Shown here: positions 17,704 through 35,424 of the stretch, piece by piece
Position numbering within the stretch: position 1 is the first letter of the stretch
Layout: every line of letters starts with the position of its first letter
IMG/VR virus record: IMGVR_UViG_3300031963_000162
Location: 1 to 59,295 of that record
Source: a virus
DNA length: 59,295 bases
Direction: 5' to 3' (one strand)
Program-made: the position numbers and the translations under genes
The notes under the pieces: model-generated
What the model was told of the DNA's origin: nothing
What the model saw: the letters and a program-made list of their open reading frames with translations, nothing else
The model's database searches: none

Positions 17704-19233
17704 ATGACTGATATCGCCAAATTCAAGGCTATCTTCGAGGGGTCGAACATTGCCTATGGAACCTATAAAATCGAACGCGAGACAGGTAGCGGCAAGCAAG
17801 CAGGCAAGGCGGTTGTCGTTCGGAAACCACCCACGGATGACCTTTGGGCTGCTCACCTTCAGGGCGTTGAGCCTTCTCTTGGCATCATTCCTATTCGTCC
17901 TGACAACAGCTGCATATGGGGCTGCATTGATATTGACCAGTATCCGCTTGACCATAAGGGACTGGTGGAAAAGATTCGTCGGCTAAAACTGCCGCTGGTT
18001 GTGTGCCGCAGTAAGTCAGGCGGCGCTCATGTATTCCTGTTTACTAAAGAACCTATCGCTGCTGCAGAGATGCAGCGTTACTTAAATACGTGTGCAAGCA
18101 TACTGGGAGAAAGTGGTCGTGAAATCTTTCCGAAGCAAACTGAAGTCCTTGTTGAGCGCGGTGACACGGGTAACTTCCTTAACCTTCCGTATTTCGGGGG
18201 CGATGAAACCCTGCGTTACGCGATCAATGATGATGGCACGGCTGCCACAATTGATCAGTTCTGCGGGATTTACGAACAATACGTTCAAGATGTGCCGCTC
18301 GTTCATCCGGAAGAGGAAAAGAAAGATGCGGACGCGCCCATCAAAGACGGTCCTCCGTGTCTACAATCGCTATGCAATCAGGGATTTCCGGAAGGCACTC
18401 GCAACAACGGCCTATTTAACATCGCGGTCTACCTCAAGAAAGCGACACCCAGCAATTGGGAAGATAAGCTGATGGAATACAACCTGAAGTACATGGGGCC
18501 ACCACTGCCCATGAACGAACTTCAGGTGATCACGAAACAGCTTCACAAAAAAGATTACAAGTACAAGTGCAAGGACGCACCACTTAACTCCTTCTGCAAC
18601 GCAGGCCTGTGCCGCACACGTAAACACGGCATCGGTGCAGAGGGTCCTGACGCACCCAAAATATCGAGTCTGACCAAGTACAACTCCGAGCCGCCTCTGT
18701 GGTTCTTGGATGTCAACAACCGTCGCATCGAACTCGACACCGATCAACTGTTCAACCAACCCGCTTTCCAAAAGGCTTGCGTCGAACGTCTGAACGTACT
18801 ACCGCCCACCTTACGTCGGCAAGACTGGGAAGGATTCTTAAACGGCCTCTTGCGTGAGATGGTGGAGCTCGAGCAGATACAAGATGCACCGGAAGACACC
18901 AGCTACAGCGGGCGCTTCCAAGACCTGTTGGAAGAGTTCACCACACATTTGCAGCAAGCGATGGACCGCGAAGAGATTCTCATGGGCCGTCCTTGGACAG
19001 ACGAAGACGAAGCACGTGTGTACTTCCGAATGAAAGACCTCGAAGCACATCTAAAGCGTAGTGGCTTTAACAGCATGAGCGCACCTCGCATGGCACAGAA
19101 GATTCGTGACATGGGCGGTGAGCCGATCAGTTTGTTCTTGAAAGGCCGGGCAATACGCGCGTGGCGAGTACCACGGTTCACGCGTCAAGAGACACCCTTC
19201 GAAACACCACAACAGAAAGGAGCGCCGTTCTAA
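17704..19233 (+). CDS. Archaeo-eukaryotic primase (AEP/TOTE-type) domain protein
   Basis: A 509-aa protein whose N-terminal half carries AEP primase motifs: CIDIDQY with catalytic Asp76 and Asp78, SKSGGAHVF with His109, and a GNFLNLPYFGG strand typical of the TOTE/primase-polymerase branch. Downstream there is a helical PriCT-like region and a Cys cluster (CKDAPLNSFCNAGLC), probably metal-binding. The last 150 residues are acidic and helical. It would make primers, or fill gaps, for the family A polymerase encoded two genes later. No DnaB-like helicase domain is fused. Its stop (TAA) overlaps the next ATG by one base. Confidence 0.8.
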   Translation: MTDIAKFKAIFEGSNIAYGTYKIERETGSGKQAGKAVVVRKPPTDDLWAAHLQGVEPSLGIIPIRPDNSCIWGCIDIDQYPLDHKGLVEKIRRLKLPLVVCRSKSGGAHVFLFTKEPIAAAEMQRYLNTCASILGESGREIFPKQTEVLVERGDTGNFLNLPYFGGDETLRYAINDDGTAATIDQFCGIYEQYVQDVPLVHPEEEKKDADAPIKDGPPCLQSLCNQGFPEGTRNNGLFNIAVYLKKATPSNWEDKLMEYNLKYMGPPLPMNELQVITKQLHKKDYKYKCKDAPLNSFCNAGLCRTRKHGIGAEGPDAPKISSLTKYNSEPPLWFLDVNNRRIELDTDQLFNQPAFQKACVERLNVLPPTLRRQDWEGFLNGLLREMVELEQIQDAPEDTSYSGRFQDLLEEFTTHLQQAMDREEILMGRPWTDEDEARVYFRMKDLEAHLKRSGFNSMSAPRMAQKIRDMGGEPISLFLKGRAIRAWRVPRFTRQETPFETPQQKGAPF

Positions 19234-28722: not shown

Positions 28723-28983
28723 ATGTTGAAGGACGAAGAACGGCCCTTGTACAAGGACATCAAACCTCGGCAACACGCGGTTAGCTTTACGGCGTCCGGG
28801 CGCTATCGATACCCTTTTAAGCGGATGATTGTGAACGATTACTTTTTGGCAAGGAGCATGACGGAGGCAGAAATGGCTCGAAACGCGGTAAAGGGTTTTT
28901 GTAAACGCCACGCGGGAAAGCAATTTACTGTTCGTCAAATGCGCGATGTAGACGGTTTGTGGGTTATTAGGAGAGTGGCATGA
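28723..28983 (+). CDS. Small basic protein preceding the small terminase
   Basis: An 86-aa protein from ATG 28723, after AAGAGGAAGGC. Basic and aromatic, with KPRQHAVSFTASGRYRYPFK, then a helical segment (RSMTEAEMARNAVKGFCKRH) and FTVRQMRDVDGLWVIRRV. The layout hints at a small nucleic-acid-binding fold, but no family is certain. It is coupled to the small terminase gene by ATGA, so it may be a packaging or transcription accessory. Confidence 0.55.
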   Translation: MLKDEERPLYKDIKPRQHAVSFTASGRYRYPFKRMIVNDYFLARSMTEAEMARNAVKGFCKRHAGKQFTVRQMRDVDGLWVIRRVA

Positions 28984-29810
28984 CCCGACGTAAGGATGAG
29001 ACACGCACGAAGGTGGCGATGCCCAGTTTGCCTCCGGAAGTCTTGGAGCGCGTAGCAAAGGCCCCGAAGCCCGGCAGGAACGGCAAGCAGGTGATTCTGA
29101 GCCCGAAGGAATGGGCCTTTGTTCAGGAGTATGTGACCCGAGACGGGACTATGACCCGGACGGAGGCGGCTATACGGGCCGGATACACCCCAAACGCGGC
29201 CAGAGAGGCCGTAACGCGGCTTTTGGACCCTGCACGTAGTCCGCATGTCGTAGCCGCTGTAAACGAGCTCAGAAACGAACTGGCGGAGAAGTTCGGGACG
29301 ACCTTCGAGCGGCACATGCGTGACCTGCAGATGATCCGTGATAAGGCTATAGAGGCCGGGGCGTGGTCTGCTGCTGTACAGGCGGAATATCGCCGTGGGC
29401 AGGCGCTGGGCACGATTTACGTAGATCGCAAGGAAGTGCGGATTGGCACTATTGACTCGATGTCAAAAGAGGAAGTGATCCGCAAGCTGCAGGAGATCAA
29501 GCAGATTTATGGCGGACCGCCCCCGACAACCGTTTTAGAGATGGAAATAAAAGAAATTGAGGAAGAGCCCGTACCAGTGGAGCCCGAAGTAAAATTTGAG
29601 CCGGGTGATTTTTTGGACGATTTGTCGTTAGGCGAGGAGGAGCCAGCACTTGTCACGAAAAAGCGAGCAGCGGCTTTTCGACAGATTAAAGCGGAATTGG
29701 ACGACAGTTCACATGACGCGGATCGAGACGCGGGTGAACTTGGGGATTCCCGACCTGATGGTGGCCCTGCCGAACTCGCATTTCGTTCTAATCGAATTGA
29801 AGGTAGTTAG
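28980..29810 (+). CDS. terS: Terminase small subunit
   Basis: A 276-aa protein with the HTH-containing N-terminal domain of Terminase_2-type small subunits: AFVQEYVTRDGTMTRTEAAI, then AGYTPNAAREAVTRLLDP (residues 42-85). A central helical oligomerisation region and a Pro/Glu-rich linker follow. TerS rings recognise the packaging site and stimulate the large subunit, encoded about 4 kb downstream at 33958. The last 53 codons overlap the next gene in another frame, and this tail (DADRDAGELGDSRPDG) looks unlike a folded domain, so the true end, or a frameshift, is uncertain. Confidence 0.75.
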   Translation: MTRRKDETRTKVAMPSLPPEVLERVAKAPKPGRNGKQVILSPKEWAFVQEYVTRDGTMTRTEAAIRAGYTPNAAREAVTRLLDPARSPHVVAAVNELRNELAEKFGTTFERHMRDLQMIRDKAIEAGAWSAAVQAEYRRGQALGTIYVDRKEVRIGTIDSMSKEEVIRKLQEIKQIYGGPPPTTVLEMEIKEIEEEPVPVEPEVKFEPGDFLDDLSLGEEEPALVTKKRAAAFRQIKAELDDSSHDADRDAGELGDSRPDGGPAELAFRSNRIEGS

Positions 29811-30072
29811 CGCGGGCCTGAAGATTAACCTGAGTCCTCACCAGTACGCCTTTCATATGAAACATGCGGCGCTGGGATGCCCGACCTTTGTCGTGGTGGA
29901 AGTGAACACGAAGGTTCGCGCGCCGGAGTTACTTTTGTTCACGGGCGCGCAAGTGCTCGACATATCGAAGCGGGGAATTATGGCGGACTGTGTCGCGCGC
30001 TGGCCCCTCGCAAAAATAGACTGGGAAGAATTTCACAAAAAGGTCTTGCAATTGCCGAACGAGCGCGCATAA
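29650..30072 (+). CDS. VRR-NUC-type PD-(D/E)XK nuclease
   Basis: A 140-aa protein from TTG 29650. Motifs: SEQRLFDRL (Glu6), LGIPDLMVA (Asp35), VLIELKV (Glu49, Lys51) and LSPHQYAFH (Gln65), the order found in VRR-NUC/Holliday-junction-resolvase-like nucleases. Such phage enzymes cut branched DNA before packaging or help recombination. It overlaps the small terminase by 161 bases in the +1 frame, including its own first catalytic Glu. The start lacks a strong ribosome site, so coupling or a frameshift from the terminase frame is possible. Its stop overlaps the -10 box of the next promoter. Confidence 0.75.
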   Translation: MSRKSEQRLFDRLKRNWTTVHMTRIETRVNLGIPDLMVALPNSHFVLIELKVVSAGLKINLSPHQYAFHMKHAALGCPTFVVVEVNTKVRAPELLLFTGAQVLDISKRGIMADCVARWPLAKIDWEEFHKKVLQLPNERA

Positions 30073-30114
30073 TTTCCGGACGGGCACATGCTCGGATTAC
30101 ATACAGGGAGAAAA
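30046..30114 (+). promoter_or_regulatory. Promoter-leader element A
   Basis: TTGCAA (30046-30051), 16 bases, CATAAT (30068-30073), then TTTCCGGACGGGCA (30073-30086), a hairpin (CGGGC 30081-30085 with GCTCG 30090-30094, one G-U pair) and ATACAGGGAGAAAA (30101-30114). The same plan recurs before the genes at 31278 and 31887. Confidence 0.65.
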
Positions 30115-30116
30115 AC

Positions 30117-30308
30117 ATGCCTATTACACGTACAGACGCCGCCATTGAATTAATTACTTTCGCGGATAAAAAGCTTGATCTTGACGACCGAGAATCGGCG
30201 GCGGCGCTTGTTTTGGCCGCTTGTTTTTTGGCGGGCAGCACTGAGAATATTTTATCGCTGATCAAATTAATGATGGACTCGCACGAAATCATGAGCGAAA
30301 AATGTTAG
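30117..30308 (+). CDS. Small helical protein of the promoter-leader cassette
   Basis: A 63-aa helical protein from ATG 30117, 7 bases after GGGAG of the shared leader. Sequence: TRTDAAIELITFADKKLDL, then Ala-rich helix (SAAALVLAACFLAGS) and a helical end. The Ala-rich stretch is amphipathic rather than a clear membrane helix. It is the first of four genes in this cassette that each have a private promoter. The function is unknown. Confidence 0.6.
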   Translation: MPITRTDAAIELITFADKKLDLDDRESAAALVLAACFLAGSTENILSLIKLMMDSHEIMSEKC

Positions 30309-30466
30309 AACTTGAGGGATTAAAAAGGTCTCGCCAGTATAAAAACTGGCACAAAAAGCGGTTTCGCCATGTTATTGAGCCCCCACCTTCGAAGCCCGTC
30401 TCGTGGTTTTCCCATGTTTCAAGGCTGTTCGGCATGTGGGTTGTGCACCTGATACTAGGTAACTAA
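30302..30466 (+). CDS. Tiny basic protein overlapping the previous gene
   Basis: A 54-aa reading frame from ATG 30302, overlapping the preceding stop by 7 bases. It begins with basic LKRSRQYKNWHKKRFRHV, has a PPPSKP turn and ends in a short hydrophobic segment (LFGMWVVHLILGN), giving a possible membrane-peripheral peptide. There is no separate ribosome site, so translation would depend on coupling. It could be non-functional; it is kept because the overlap pattern matches the rest of the phage. Confidence 0.35.
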   Translation: MLELEGLKRSRQYKNWHKKRFRHVIEPPPSKPVSWFSHVSRLFGMWVVHLILGN

Positions 30467-30473
30467 TAAATAC

Positions 30474-30541
30474 TTGACCGGCGGATAGAATCGAGCTATA
30501 AAGTTACTGCGCGCAAGCGGCGCGCTTATACAGGGAGAAAA
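30474..30541 (+). promoter_or_regulatory. Promoter-leader element B (near-consensus sigma70)
   Basis: TTGACC (30474-30479), a 17-base spacer and TATAAA (30497-30502), the best sigma70-like promoter in the window. The leader forms a GCGCGC (30509-30514) / GCGCGC (30520-30525) hairpin with a 5-base loop and ends in ATACAGGGAGAAAA (30528-30541). Confidence 0.75.
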
Positions 30542-30543
30542 TT

Positions 30544-31233
30544 TTGAAAACCGTTCACTTGACAATCAAGAGCTCAAACAAGAAAACCGGCCCGATACCG
30601 GTATCTACTACCAGCGCGAAATCGTGCCCTGATTCGTGCCCGCTTAAGAAAAACGGATGTTATGCGGACGGCGGGCCGCTCGCGTTGCACTGGCGCGCTG
30701 TTACTGAGGGCCAGCGTGGCATGCATTGGGCTGAGTTTTGCGAATCAATTGAAGCTTTACCGGCGGGCCAGCTCTGGCGGCATAATCAGGCAGGCGATTT
30801 GCCGGGCCTGAATGAATCAATTAATCCGGACGCGTTGCGCATGCTAGTCAAGGCGAACACGGGAAAACGCGGCTTCACGTATACGCACAAACCGGCCAGC
30901 GCTGAAAATCTAGCGTTAATCCGTGAAGCGAACGCGGGCGGCTTCACTATCAATTTATCGGCGAATAGTCTCGCACACGCGGATGAGCTGGCGGCATTGG
31001 ACGCTGGGCCCGTGGTGACGCTACTTCCGCCCGGCGCGCCCTCACTTACGAAAACCCCGGCGGGCCGTCCCGTGGTGACGTGCCCGGCCCAGCTCCGGGA
31101 CGATATCAGCTGCGCGGATTGTCAGTTGTGCTCACGTGCTGAGCGGCCCTCGATTGTCGGTTTTATCGCCCACGGGGCGGGCTCAAAACGGGCCGAGAAA
31201 ATAAGCTTGCATTTCCAAAGTAAGGCCCTATAA
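30544..31233 (+). CDS. Cys-rich DUF7227-like protein
   Basis: A 229-aa protein starting at TTG 30544, 7 bases after GGGAG. The N-terminus reads KTVHLTIKSSNKKTGPIPVS, followed by SCPDSCPLKKNGCYADGG (Cys28, 32, 39). The C-terminal part has CPAQLRDDISCADCQLCSRA. The two Cys clusters suggest bound Fe-S or zinc. I recall this family as DUF7227, common on phages and plasmids beside DUF932 genes; this is unverified. It has the strongest promoter in the cassette, so it may be made in quantity. No enzymatic function is established. Confidence 0.65.
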   Translation: MKTVHLTIKSSNKKTGPIPVSTTSAKSCPDSCPLKKNGCYADGGPLALHWRAVTEGQRGMHWAEFCESIEALPAGQLWRHNQAGDLPGLNESINPDALRMLVKANTGKRGFTYTHKPASAENLALIREANAGGFTINLSANSLAHADELAALDAGPVVTLLPPGAPSLTKTPAGRPVVTCPAQLRDDISCADCQLCSRAERPSIVGFIAHGAGSKRAEKISLHFQSKAL

Positions 31234-31275
31234 TTTCCGGGCGGGCACTTGGTCCCGCTTTATACAGGGAGAAAA
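31207..31275 (+). promoter_or_regulatory. Promoter-leader element C
   Basis: TTGCAT (31207-31212), 16 bases, TATAAT (31229-31234, perfect -10, overlapping the upstream stop codon), TTTCCGGGCGGGCA (31234-31247), hairpin GCGGG (31241-31245) / CCCGC (31254-31258), then ATACAGGGAGAAAA (31262-31275). Confidence 0.7.
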
Positions 31276-31277
31276 AA

Positions 31278-31544
31278 ATGCAAATGAAACAAATTGCACT
31301 GGCGGTTTTTAACGATCCCGCTACGCAGGAAAAGCAAAAGCAGGCTTTTTTATATTGGCTGAATGAGGGCCACGAGACGGGCGCCCTTCTTCAGCTCTTA
31401 TCGATTATTTTTGCGGAGCTGAAAAAACCAATTTATGAGGGTGTTTCATTCGACGATAGTCCATGGTCTGCAGCTGCAGAATTATTAGAATTCCACATTC
31501 AAAGCGAGCTCGAAAAGCGGGAAGGGGTGAAAAATGAAGCTTGA
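31278..31544 (+). CDS. Small acidic helical protein of the cassette
   Basis: An 88-aa helical protein from ATG 31278, after the shared leader; ATG 31284 is an alternative. Pattern: NDPATQEKQKQAFLYWLNEG, then LLQLLSIIFAELKKP and a Glu-rich end. No motif of known activity. It overlaps the next gene by 11 bases, making a two-gene unit under promoter C. Confidence 0.6.
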   Translation: MQMKQIALAVFNDPATQEKQKQAFLYWLNEGHETGALLQLLSIIFAELKKPIYEGVSFDDSPWSAAAELLEFHIQSELEKREGVKNEA

Positions 31545-31827
31545 CATTATTTCGGACCCGGGCCATGCGTGGGCGAAAGTTTCGATTCGCTTACTTGACC
31601 GCTTGAATTTGCTCGATTCGATTAGCTATTACAGTTACATGCGGGACGGTTTCGCTTATCTTGAAGAAGATTGTGATCTGGGCGTGTTAATGCATGCGGC
31701 CCAGCTGGCCGGTATCCCGTTGACCTTCCGCGAACGCGTAGCACGTGAGCGATATTCTCGCGTCCGGAATTACAGTCGATATACCCCGGAGCGGGCCCGG
31801 AATAAATTGGTTTGTAATTCTGATTAA
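31534..31827 (+). CDS. Small conserved phage/plasmid protein (GHAW..SYSY type)
   Basis: A 97-aa protein with SDPGHAWAKVSIRLLDRLNL, then ISYYSYMRDGFAYLEEDCDL. This string pattern (GH-W at the start, SYSY, YLEEDCD) recurs in small hypothetical proteins of phages and plasmids, often near DUF932 genes. The function is unknown. Its C-terminal codons include CAGCTGG, the same heptamer repeated in the noncoding array at 33.0-33.4 kb. Its stop lies inside promoter D. Confidence 0.6.
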   Translation: MKLDIISDPGHAWAKVSIRLLDRLNLLDSISYYSYMRDGFAYLEEDCDLGVLMHAAQLAGIPLTFRERVARERYSRVRNYSRYTPERARNKLVCNSD

Positions 31828-31884
31828 TTCGCTTATACTTTCCGGGCGGGCAAACCGCCCGCTTTTTTCAATACAGGGAGAAAA
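31812..31884 (+). promoter_or_regulatory. Promoter-leader element D with terminator-like hairpin
   Basis: TTGTAA (31812-31817), 16 bases, TATACT (31834-31839), TTTCCGGGCGGGCA (31839-31852). The hairpin CGGGCGG (31843-31849) / CCGCCCG (31855-31861) is followed by CTTTTTT, a near-perfect intrinsic terminator inside the leader, then ATACAGGGAGAAAA (31871-31884). It could act as an attenuator, or terminate upstream transcripts. Confidence 0.65.
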
Positions 31885-31886
31885 TC

Positions 31887-32972
31887 ATGTCAACACTTAT
31901 GCAAGCTTCGCGTCAATGGTCTACACGTCCCGCCGAAGAGCGGTTTATTTCGCTCACGGAAATGCATGCTCAGCAAGCGGCCCAGCGCGCTATTTCGCGC
32001 GCCGCCGTGGTGAGCTCGCGTCAGCTCCGCGCAGTGCCCACGGATGACAATTCCGGCATTTTGATTGAGGGCCCGAACGGGCACGGGTTTGCCCCTTCGC
32101 ATTGGGCGTTCGGCCAAGCGGCGGGCCTGATCGGCGCGCCCGCTGGGTATCTGCGTACACTCCCGGCCCCAGTGGCGGCGGACTGTATCAATTGGGGCAT
32201 GCAACACGAACGGGACGCGCAGGATGTGGGCGTACTGTTAACGCGCAACGGCGAATCAGTAATTCGCGCTATGACCGGCCCGCGCTACGGGCGTGTGTGG
32301 AATGATGATGTTATTGCGGCGCTGATTGACCGCTTTGGTGACGGCGTGACGGGCGATTTCCGCGTCCCGGGCGTATGGGGCCGGGCCGTTGAAGTGGACC
32401 GCGAAAACACCACGCTGTACGCGGGAGACCGCGACATGTTCGTTTTTCTCGCCGATGAGAAAAACCGCATCGAGCTACCGGGCCGCCGGGACGGCGAGAC
32501 CGGGACGCTGGCCCGGGGGTTTTTTGTCACTAATTCCGAAGTGGGCGGCGGGGCCTTGCGCGTGAAAACCTTTTTGTTCGATTTTGTTTGCGCGAATCGT
32601 ATTGTATGGGGCGCTCATGAGCTCGAAGAAATATCGCTTCGGCATACGGCCAGCGCGCCGGACCGCTTCATTGAAGAAGTAGCGCCCGCGTTGCTCGCTT
32701 ATTCGCAGGCCAGCGAATCGAACACGCTGAACGTGTTGCAAGCGGCCCAGCGCGAGCGGATCCCGGACGTGAGCAAGTTTCTCGCGAATCGTTTCGGGCC
32801 GCGTGTTGCCCAGCGCGTTGAACATGCGCACGTGATTGATGAGGGGCGCCCCATTGAAACGATCTGGGACGCTGTAACGGGCGCTACGGCGTACGCCCGC
32901 TCGATTCAATGGACCGCTGATCGCGTCGAATTCGAGACGCAAGCGGGCGAGCTACTGGACCTCGTAGCGTGA
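31887..32972 (+). CDS. DUF932-family phage/plasmid protein
   Basis: A 361-aa protein with the DUF932 pattern: an N-terminal segment with HGFAPSHWAFGQAAGLIGAP, then GVLLTRNGESVIRAMTGPRYG, NDDVIAALIDRFGD, and a core with FFVTNSEVGGGALRVKTFLF and CANRIVWG. DUF932 proteins are common on phages and plasmids; their biochemical role is unsettled. It is expressed from promoter D, behind a terminator-like leader hairpin. A GC-rich coding style (many GGCCCAG, CGGGCC) matches the rest of the cassette rather than the capsid genes. A strong terminator follows. Confidence 0.8.
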   Translation: MSTLMQASRQWSTRPAEERFISLTEMHAQQAAQRAISRAAVVSSRQLRAVPTDDNSGILIEGPNGHGFAPSHWAFGQAAGLIGAPAGYLRTLPAPVAADCINWGMQHERDAQDVGVLLTRNGESVIRAMTGPRYGRVWNDDVIAALIDRFGDGVTGDFRVPGVWGRAVEVDRENTTLYAGDRDMFVFLADEKNRIELPGRRDGETGTLARGFFVTNSEVGGGALRVKTFLFDFVCANRIVWGAHELEEISLRHTASAPDRFIEEVAPALLAYSQASESNTLNVLQAAQRERIPDVSKFLANRFGPRVAQRVEHAHVIDEGRPIETIWDAVTGATAYARSIQWTADRVEFETQAGELLDLVA

Positions 32973-33010
32973 TTCGTTTTCCCTGAGCTCGGCCCAGCTG
33001 GGCCGCGCGG

Positions 33011-33035
33011 ACCGCCCTTCGGGGCGGTTTTTTTT
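33011..33035 (+). terminator. Strong intrinsic terminator after DUF932 gene
   Basis: ACCGCCC (33011-33017), TTCG tetraloop, GGGCGGT (33022-33028) and eight T (33028-33035). It closes the promoter-leader cassette. Confidence 0.9.
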
Positions 33036-33293
33036 CGCCCCTATAAACCGGGCCCGGCCAGCGCCGTACATTATCCCGCCGCTATGAAAAGCTTCGGCCA
33101 GCTGGCCCCGGACGCCCGGCGCGCCCCTGAGCGGATCCGGGCCCCGTGGGCCTTGGTCCCTGATCCCTGAACGTACGGCCCCAGCGCGCGCCCCGTGGGC
33201 CCAGCTGGCCGCTTCGTGGGCCGTGGGCCGTGCCCAGCTGGCCGGGATTGATTCGCCCAGCTGCAGCGCCCAGCTGGCCGCGTGTTTGTGTTT

Positions 33294-33332
33294 GTGTTTG
33301 TGATCCGGTTTGTGATGAGGGATCACAAACAC
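33294..33332 (+). other. Competing hairpins in the repeat array
   Basis: GTGTTTGTGATCC (33294-33306) pairs perfectly over 13 bp with GGATCACAAACAC (33320-33332). The loop contains a second copy, GTTTGTGAT (33308-33316), which can instead pair 9 bp with ATCACAAAC (33322-33330). The two folds exclude each other, and three tandem TGTTTG units precede them. Confidence 0.7.
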
Positions 33333-33582
33333 CCAGCTGGCCGTGGGCCGTGGGCCGTGATGCGTGATGCATGCCCAGCTGGCCGCGCATGCCGGGCCGT
33401 GGGCCGCGCGCCCCGGACCGTGGGCCGTGGACCGGGGGCCGAGTCCCGGCGTCCATTCGTGCGGTATCTGGCGTAAGTGAGCACCCACCCCGGATTTTGG
33501 CCCCCCTGTCTGGCTGGCGAACGCCTAGGCCCGATTTCACACAAACAGTTACGTATTGAACTGTTTCTGTTTTTGTGGAACA

Positions 33583-33933: not shown

Positions 33934-33957
33934 AAATTTTTGCAAAATTCAAAACCT

Positions 33958-35424
33958 ATGGACTTAGCAAATCAACAAGATGTCGAATCGGAACGTATCA
34001 AGCTAGAACTTCGACTCTTGCAGCTTGAAGCGCAGGAACGTGCAACGTCCTCCTTCTTGGATTTCTGTCGCTACGTGTGGCCCGAGATGATTGTCGGTGA
34101 GCACCATCGCCGTATCGCTGCGGCCTTGGACCGTGTGGTCGCGGGCAAATGCAAGCGTCTGATGATCGCGATGCCTCCTCGGCACGGTAAGTCGCAGATG
34201 GGCAGTTATCTGTTCCCTGCGTACCTGATGGGCAAGAAGCCTGATTCGAAACTCATTGTCGGTTCGCACACGGCGGAGTTAGCGCAGCGTTTTGGCCGGA
34301 TGATTCGAAACCTTGTGGCGGACGAGAAGTACCGGGAGTTGTTCCCTGAGTTCATGCTCTCGGCTGACAGCAAGGCGGCGGGCCGGTGGGACACGAACGC
34401 TGGTGGGGAGGCGTTCTTCATTGGTAAAGGCGGCGCGATGACGGGCCGTGGCGGTAACGTGGTTATCTTGGACGACATCTTGGACGAACAGGATGCTTTG
34501 TCGGACACCGCGATGGAGGGCACGTGGGAGTGGTATACGTCGGGTCCTCGTCAGCGTTTGCAGCCGGATGGCGCGATTATCATCATCAACACCCGTTGGC
34601 GGACCGATGATCTGTCGGGGAGGTTATTGAAGCAGCAGGGCCAGTTGAAGTCGGACCAGTGGGAGATATTGGAGTTCCCGGCGATTCTGCCGAACAATGC
34701 GCCGTTGTGGCCGGAGTACTGGAAGCTTGAGGAGTTAGAGAAGGTCAAGATGTCGATTGGCCTTCGCAAGTGGCAGGCGCAGTGGCAGCAGCAGCCGACG
34801 GCGGAAGAGGGTGCGATATTAAAGCGCGAGTGGTGGCAGCGTTGGGAGCACAACTCGCCGCCCAAGTGTGAGTACTTAATTCAGAGTTATGACACGGCGT
34901 ACAGCAAGAAAGAGACGGCGGACTTCTCTGTGATTACGACGTGGGGCGTGTTTGTGCCGAACGCGGACTCGGGGCCGAACATTATTTTGTTGGACGTGGT
35001 GAAGGGCCGGTGGGACTTCCCGGAGTTAAAGCGTATTGCCAAGGAGCAGTACAGCTATTGGAATCCTGACAACGTCTTGATCGAGGCCAAGGCCACGGGC
35101 GTGACATTGCAGCAGGAACTGCGGCGCGTGGGCATACCGGTGACGATGTACAACCCCGGTGGACGGCGCGCGGGTCAGGACAAGATAAGCAGGGCGCATG
35201 CGGTGGCTCCGTTGTTCGAGAGCCGGATGGTCTGGGCACCTGAGACGGAGTGGGCGGAGGAGCTGATTGAGGAGTGTGCGGCATTCCCGAATGGCGATAA
35301 CGACGACATGGTCGATTCGACAACACAGGCCATGATGCGCTTTAGGCAGGGCAACTTTGTGACCTTGGAGACGGACGATGTCGAGGAGGAGGGAAGCGAT
35401 GCGCTTGTGTATGAGTATTATTAG
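33958..35424 (+). CDS. terL: Terminase large subunit
   Basis: A 488-aa packaging motor from ATG 33958 (TTG 33940 is an alternative; neither has a strong ribosome site). ATPase: Walker A PPRHGKS (73-79) and Walker B VVILDDILDE (168-177), followed by the coupling region TRW near residue 209. Nuclease domain: IQSYDTAYSKKETADFSV (metal-binding Asp) and a C-terminal NGDNDDMVDST acidic site of RNase-H-like terminase nucleases. With the small subunit it translocates and cuts DNA into the prohead through the portal encoded two genes later. Confidence 0.92.
   Translation: MDLANQQDVESERIKLELRLLQLEAQERATSSFLDFCRYVWPEMIVGEHHRRIAAALDRVVAGKCKRLMIAMPPRHGKSQMGSYLFPAYLMGKKPDSKLIVGSHTAELAQRFGRMIRNLVADEKYRELFPEFMLSADSKAAGRWDTNAGGEAFFIGKGGAMTGRGGNVVILDDILDEQDALSDTAMEGTWEWYTSGPRQRLQPDGAIIIINTRWRTDDLSGRLLKQQGQLKSDQWEILEFPAILPNNAPLWPEYWKLEELEKVKMSIGLRKWQAQWQQQPTAEEGAILKREWWQRWEHNSPPKCEYLIQSYDTAYSKKETADFSVITTWGVFVPNADSGPNIILLDVVKGRWDFPELKRIAKEQYSYWNPDNVLIEAKATGVTLQQELRRVGIPVTMYNPGGRRAGQDKISRAHAVAPLFESRMVWAPETEWAEELIEECAAFPNGDNDDMVDSTTQAMMRFRQGNFVTLETDDVEEEGSDALVYEYY

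Follow-up and report, generated by a model that had tools for sequence, protein, structure and literature searches.

Here, we report that the interval between the genes for the small and large terminase subunits (terS and terL) is a variable island of small genes across a group of uncultured, mostly lake-derived phages, and that many transcription units of this island have a predicted promoter of their own, followed by a GC-rich hairpin starting about 6–7 nt after the -10 box and by a purine-rich ribosome site whose sequence is lineage specific. Comparison of these leaders indicates that the island hairpin itself is under selection. We propose, at a probability of roughly 0.6, that the arrangement constitutes a standardised and exchangeable expression leader, in which a 5'-terminal hairpin would protect and insulate the mRNA and which would serve as a joint for gene exchange.

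The window, by which we mean the whole stretch of 59,295 nucleotides that was analysed and that makes up one virus record, derives from a phage of the DSL-LC04/'Dishuiviridae' kind. By its large terminase the nearest named phage is DSL-LC04 (67.8% identity), a metagenome-assembled phage from Dishui Lake for which its authors propose the family 'Dishuiviridae'; next come phage 023Pt_psg01 and the Pelagibacter phages HTVC027P and HTVC023P. In the window a cassette of six ORFs sits between terS and terL, and the interval is composed as follows.

28980–29810, + strand: terminase small subunit, left border of the island (phrog_51, 8e-12)
29650–30072, + strand: unnamed ORF upstream of leader 1 (phrog_2165, annotated as DNA helicase; a weaker endonuclease-like match)
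30117–30308, + strand: 63-aa ORF with no assigned function; other genes take its place in L122 and L126
30302–30466, + strand: 54-aa ORF overlapping the stop of the 63-aa ORF, without leader (read from the sequence)
30544–31233, + strand: Cys-rich DUF7227 protein of 229 aa with a TTG start (PF23872, 6e-91)
31278–31544, + strand: 88-aa ORF with no assigned function
31534–31827, + strand: 97-aa ORF overlapping the 88-aa ORF, without leader
31887–32972, + strand: DUF932 protein of 361 aa (PF06067, 5e-6; phrog_1362, 7e-43)
33009–33034, + strand: intrinsic-terminator-like site after the DUF932 gene
33940–35424, + strand: terminase large subunit, right border of the island (phrog_38, 2e-111)

A first-pass annotation of the window had counted four genes with private promoters here; the leaders head four transcription units, which hold six ORFs in total, and the 54-aa and 97-aa ORFs have no leader. 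Both of these overlap the stop of the preceding ORF, as expected for translational coupling. The DUF7227 and DUF932 identities that it had named were confirmed by Pfam, with 304 bits (gathering cut-off 27) and 26.8 bits (gathering cut-off 23), respectively. The terminator-like site is likely the common 3' end of the island transcripts. The four leaders are built as follows.

30046–30114, + strand: leader 1, with -35 TTGCAA at 30046–30051, -10 CATAAT at 30068–30073, hairpin at 30081–30094 and motif at 30101–30114
30474–30541, + strand: leader 2, with -35 TTGACC at 30474–30479, -10 TATAAA at 30497–30502, hairpin at 30509–30525 and motif at 30528–30541
31207–31275, + strand: leader 3, with -35 TTGCAT at 31207–31212, -10 TATAAT at 31229–31234, hairpin at 31241–31258 and motif at 31262–31275
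31812–31884, + strand: leader 4, with -35 TTGTAA at 31812–31817, -10 TATACT at 31834–31839, hairpin at 31843–31861 and motif at 31871–31884

The window holds the exact motif ATACAGGGAGAAAA only at 30101, 30528, 31262 and 31871, which bears out the four identical copies that had been noted 5' of the genes at 30117, 30544, 31278 and 31887. Allowing up to two mismatches adds a single match, at 18100 inside coding sequence; 0.32 such matches are expected, and five were never reached in 100 shuffles. The element TTTCCGG(A/G)CGGGCA does precede ATACAGGGAGAAAA in three of the four leaders, as had been stated, and a window scan placed TTTCCGGRCGGGCA exactly at 30073, 31234 and 31839; the linker between TTTCCGGRCGGGCA and ATACAGGGAGAAAA ranges from about 4 to 30 nt while both blocks stay conserved. 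The three promoters previously described were recovered as TTGCAA-N16-CATAAT (30046–30073), TTGCAT-N16-TATAAT (31207–31234) and TTGTAA-N16-TATACT (31812–31839), and leader 2 has a spacer of 17 nt (TTGACC-N17-TATAAA). Their -10 boxes lie at or next to the upstream stop, overlapping it in leader 1 (30070–30072, the TAA of the ORF at 29650–30072) and leader 3 (31231–31233) and following it by 7 nt in leader 4 (31825–31827).

All four leaders fold into the hairpin that had been drawn between the -10 box and the ribosome site, with single-hairpin energies of -6.9, -11.9, -10.1 and -17.4 kcal/mol for leaders 1 to 4 and z-scores against shuffles of -3.1, -1.4, -0.8 and -3.5; two of the four are no more stable than shuffles. 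Promoter matches in the window alone are not above chance (2 found, 3.2 expected), and a strict scan for promoter, hairpin and Shine-Dalgarno (SD) element recovers leader 4 only, so that the window by itself does not suffice to establish the pattern. Rfam gave no curated-family match at the leaders, and a sub-threshold match only at the terminator (32974–33035).

Of 50 independent island leaders, 62% had a hairpin at p<0.05; the figure was 12.7% for 55 control leaders, taken from other same-strand genes of these contigs with an upstream gap (odds ratio 11, p = 1.2e-7). Among DUF932 leaders, judged against dinucleotide shuffles, 17 of 26 independent ones had such a hairpin, compared with 23% of 82 control leaders; in both comparisons independence means dereplication by shared 7-mers, the leaders not being fully independent in descent, and genes were called by the same simple script in island and control sets. 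The position of the hairpin is also constrained. A -10-like hexamer stands 2–9 nt before the stem in 12 cases where 2.8 are expected (maximum 8 in 500 shuffles), with the distance peaking at 6–7 nt, which places the stem at about +1 of the predicted transcript.

Compensatory changes were clearest away from the window. In the DUF932 lineage L226–L240, four stem pairs have changed on both sides with pairing kept, and the covariation score of 0.267 was matched in none of 500 shuffles (0.127), with slid controls at 0.074 or below; a second DUF932 lineage gave a weaker signal. The leaders of the window and its closest relatives covary little: their 5' arm is almost invariant, with one double change (the first leader of L126) plus G-U changes, and the alignment of leader 2 gave no covariation. 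The covarying stems reported in the first-pass annotation are thus weak in the window and its closest relatives and absent from leader 2, strong covariation being restricted to more distant relatives such as L226–L240; its broader suggestion that structure is selected holds, given the hairpin excess in island and DUF932 leaders, the preferred position and the compensatory changes in relatives. The hairpin is weak or not clear in some lineages (L243, L251, L262 and L276), and is at most weak in the leaders of the named phages S-ESS1 and ZS04, which have DUF932.

These same data bear on the possibility that the shared leaders are a trace of recent duplication or gene conversion combined with a favourable ribosome site, the hairpins being GC-rich by-products. 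The paralogous leaders of the window lineage are indeed highly identical with little covariation, and the SD-like motif is strong. However, hairpins exceed dinucleotide shuffles in unrelated leaders, are far commoner in island than in control leaders, show a preferred position after the -10 box and carry compensatory changes in relatives, so that this explanation is already disfavoured and appears quite improbable.

It is also very doubtful that the hairpins are terminators or attenuators of upstream genes, as in strict promoter-terminator composites. The hairpin of leader 4 is GC-rich, is followed by TTTTTT and scores as a terminator, but its close relatives have no T-run, a T-run follows just one of 31 significant island hairpins, and the hairpins lie downstream of the -10 box rather than before the promoter. 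Processing by RNase III was ruled out, since the stems of island leaders are only about 5–11 bp.

Close relatives have the same leaders as the window, with up to five copies per phage. More distant relatives keep the design with other leader sequences, which are lineage specific and common to several genes per phage: in L305 the units stand in runs and end in AGAAAGGATAGAG, while units end in AGAAAGGAGA in L340 and in ATACRGGAGAAAG or similar in L358, in each case after a hairpin unlike that of the other lineages. The complete DSL-LC04 genome has its own leader motif four times, all between terS and terL. A scan of viral contigs for the exact motif gave 119 matches, most of them single and, as single matches, consistent with chance; several copies per contig occurred only in loci related to the window. 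By eye, a palindrome lies between -35 and -10 at each island promoter of some relatives (L358:5310–5908, L305:5690–7193, L300:6303–7223 and L364; for example TTGACGTCCGGACG and GGGCGACCGGTCGCCC) and differs between genes.

Leaders that are shared among the genes of one phage and different between lineages could point to a phage-encoded regulator, lineage specific like its target, that switches the island genes as a set by binding to the leaders, either in RNA form or in the DNA of the promoter and initial transcribed region. The conservation of both TTTCCGGRCGGGCA and ATACAGGGAGAAAA across a variable linker would fit such a factor, as would the palindromes seen in L300, L305, L358 and L364, and the fact that TTTCCGGRCGGGCA hardly varies among several leaders of a single phage points to some sequence-specific constraint beyond a generic hairpin. 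Against this, a dimeric DNA-binding protein requires half-sites at a constant spacing and an RNA-binding protein constant bases, whereas loop length (4–8 nt) and the sequences of stem and loop differ between genes of one phage, the stem of leader 2 is unrelated to the other window stems, and compensatory changes preserve pairing and not sequence. No candidate regulator gene was identified, and we consider such control unlikely. Between lineages, stem and loop sequence change freely while pairing, position and ribosome-site motif persist, and a generic 5'-terminal hairpin accounts better for this than a specific binding site would. A conserved structure with no fixed sequence, loops of variable length within one phage and the rarity of T-runs together argue against both a specific protein site and terminators, and a dedicated RNA-binding regulator is not needed. 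Of the co-regulated cassette previously postulated, then, the cassette with shared leaders stands, while the common RNA-binding protein is not supported as it was stated, given that stems and loops vary freely. A more speculative variant, to which we give little credence, is that a lineage-specific phage factor recognises hairpin and ribosome site as one module and switches the island on as a regulon, hence a leader 'dialect'. Were it true, the dialect would determine whether a newly acquired gene can be expressed, and the terS-terL island would be an addressable slot for host-takeover or counter-defence genes.

The expression-leader reading also accommodates the way in which homology breaks off in the island. 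The window and L122 are 96.5% identical up to 30119, at the end of leader 1, and no homology is detectable from there to 30481. Identity is about 95% between 30482 (promoter 2) and 31274, where leader 3 ends, and homology resumes at 31278. Against L124, L125 and L126, the left homology block stops at 30113, likewise the end of leader 1. Since breakpoints coincide with leader edges and different genes lie behind the same leader in L122 and L126, gene replacement respects the leader edges; this could reflect recombination at the leader or a leader that is simply retained.

The mechanism that we favour is the following. In each unit a host sigma-70-type promoter would drive transcription, an activity we infer from the promoter motifs, and the GC-rich hairpin would begin at or a few bases from the predicted 5' end of the transcript, with the purine-rich ribosome site left unpaired 20–30 nt further on. 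The hairpin would act through its structure, the paired 5' end blocking 5'-end-dependent decay of the RppH/RNase E type and keeping the leader from folding with the variable sequence around it, so that any gene behind the leader could obtain strong and independent expression. As its ends are conserved and short, the leader may double as a joint for gene exchange between related phages. A 5' hairpin with an open ribosome site is a textbook means of shielding mRNA from 5'-end-dependent decay, because RppH and RNase E require single-stranded 5' ends and 5' hairpins stabilise mRNA (PMC3997798). RppH dependence is limited to about 10% of mRNAs in E. coli (PMC3997798), which means that the gain from a 5' hairpin varies with the host. 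If the proposal is right, it describes how widespread uncultured phages make accessory genes exchangeable, one short leader giving an incoming gene promoter, mRNA protection, ribosome site and swapping joint.

The claim of an undescribed system was too strong, since start-associated motifs (PMC3203893) and promoter/stem-loop cassettes (PMC4503421) are already known in other phages. In cluster K mycobacteriophages, many non-structural genes of one phage are preceded by the SAS, a conserved short motif at the ribosome site, with an inverted repeat just upstream of it in about half of the cases (ESAS); the variants differ between subclusters and their function is unproven (PMC3203893). The island leaders are alike in that a ribosome-site motif is repeated upstream of several genes with an inverted repeat or hairpin before it. 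They differ in the motif, ATACAGGGAGAAAA here and the 13-bp GGGATAGGAGCCC in SAS, and in distribution, being confined to one terS-terL island where SAS are spread over the right half of the genome. Moreover, the 17-bp imperfect inverted repeats of ESAS are conserved in arm sequence and the departures from it do not keep RNA pairing, so that DNA binding was favoured (PMC3203893), whereas the shorter stems here change in arm sequence with pairing kept. Should the proposal hold, simple leader reporters would make the old question of what start-associated repeats do in phages testable.

Another precedent is the promoter early stem-loops (PeSLs) of T4-type phages, promoter and stem-loop cassettes between genes that are proposed as mediators of gene shuffling (PMC4503421) and, by the title of their report, are 'composite conserved promoter-terminator motifs'. 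So far as that description goes, the leaders resemble PeSLs in that their edges appear as homology breakpoints with different genes behind the same leader, and differ in that the hairpin follows the -10 box, rarely with a T-run, and that the unit includes a shared ribosome-site motif. Stabilising stem-loops at the extreme 5' end of mRNAs are represented by the ompA and papA type, as cited in PMC3997798. The island leaders would share with these a stem-loop at the 5' end, here predicted, followed by an unpaired ribosome site; the ompA/papA type is described for single genes, and the module here recurs at several genes in a single locus and persists throughout a phage group. Moron genes of lambdoid phages are extra genes with own promoters between conserved phage genes, an arrangement also predicted for the island, whose units differ in having no individual terminators and which is itself fixed in the group, with only its content varying.

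As a sequence handle, the leader could be used to find accessory genes of unassigned function in metagenomes, and the analysis ties DUF932 to DUF7227/GP88 proteins as a conserved pair. Of 79 loci, 69 have a DUF7227-type gene alongside DUF932, and another has a GP88 gene (PF17338) there. In that relative (L247:7468–8169) the GP88 protein (5e-41) takes the DUF7227 position behind a related leader, CTATACAGGAAGAAAG, which suggests that DUF932 can have either GP88 or DUF7227 as its partner. An AF2 model of the DUF7227 protein (pLDDT 91.7, pTM 0.90) predicts a TIM-barrel-like fold, with weak TIM-barrel structural matches and none close, and its cysteines are invariant. The DUF932 model (pLDDT 73) had no meaningful PDB match.

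DUF7227 was found in two segment orders, A-B-C in the window and A-C-B in many relatives beside DUF932 (window 30544–31233; L225:5225–5914; 45 other DUF932-linked loci). Segment B corresponds to window residues 38–90, GCYADGGPLALHW...RHNQAGD; in the A-C-B form it stands at the C-terminus (residues 177–225, E 4e-10) with the order of A and C kept, which looks like a barrel permutation behind a fixed N-terminus. An identical DUF932 gene is present in L365 (CAJAHH010000075.1), the one such copy given by a scan of genome contigs. This contig of 40.8 kb is assigned to an uncultured Verrucomicrobia MAG; it is probably a mis-binned phage contig and was not used as host evidence. The non-coding stretch from DUF932 to an HNH gene in the window (33090–33450) holds seven copies of CAGCTGGCC, of which the window has eight with 0.6 expected, plus GTGGGCC repeats, and these repeats are possible recombination or binding sites.
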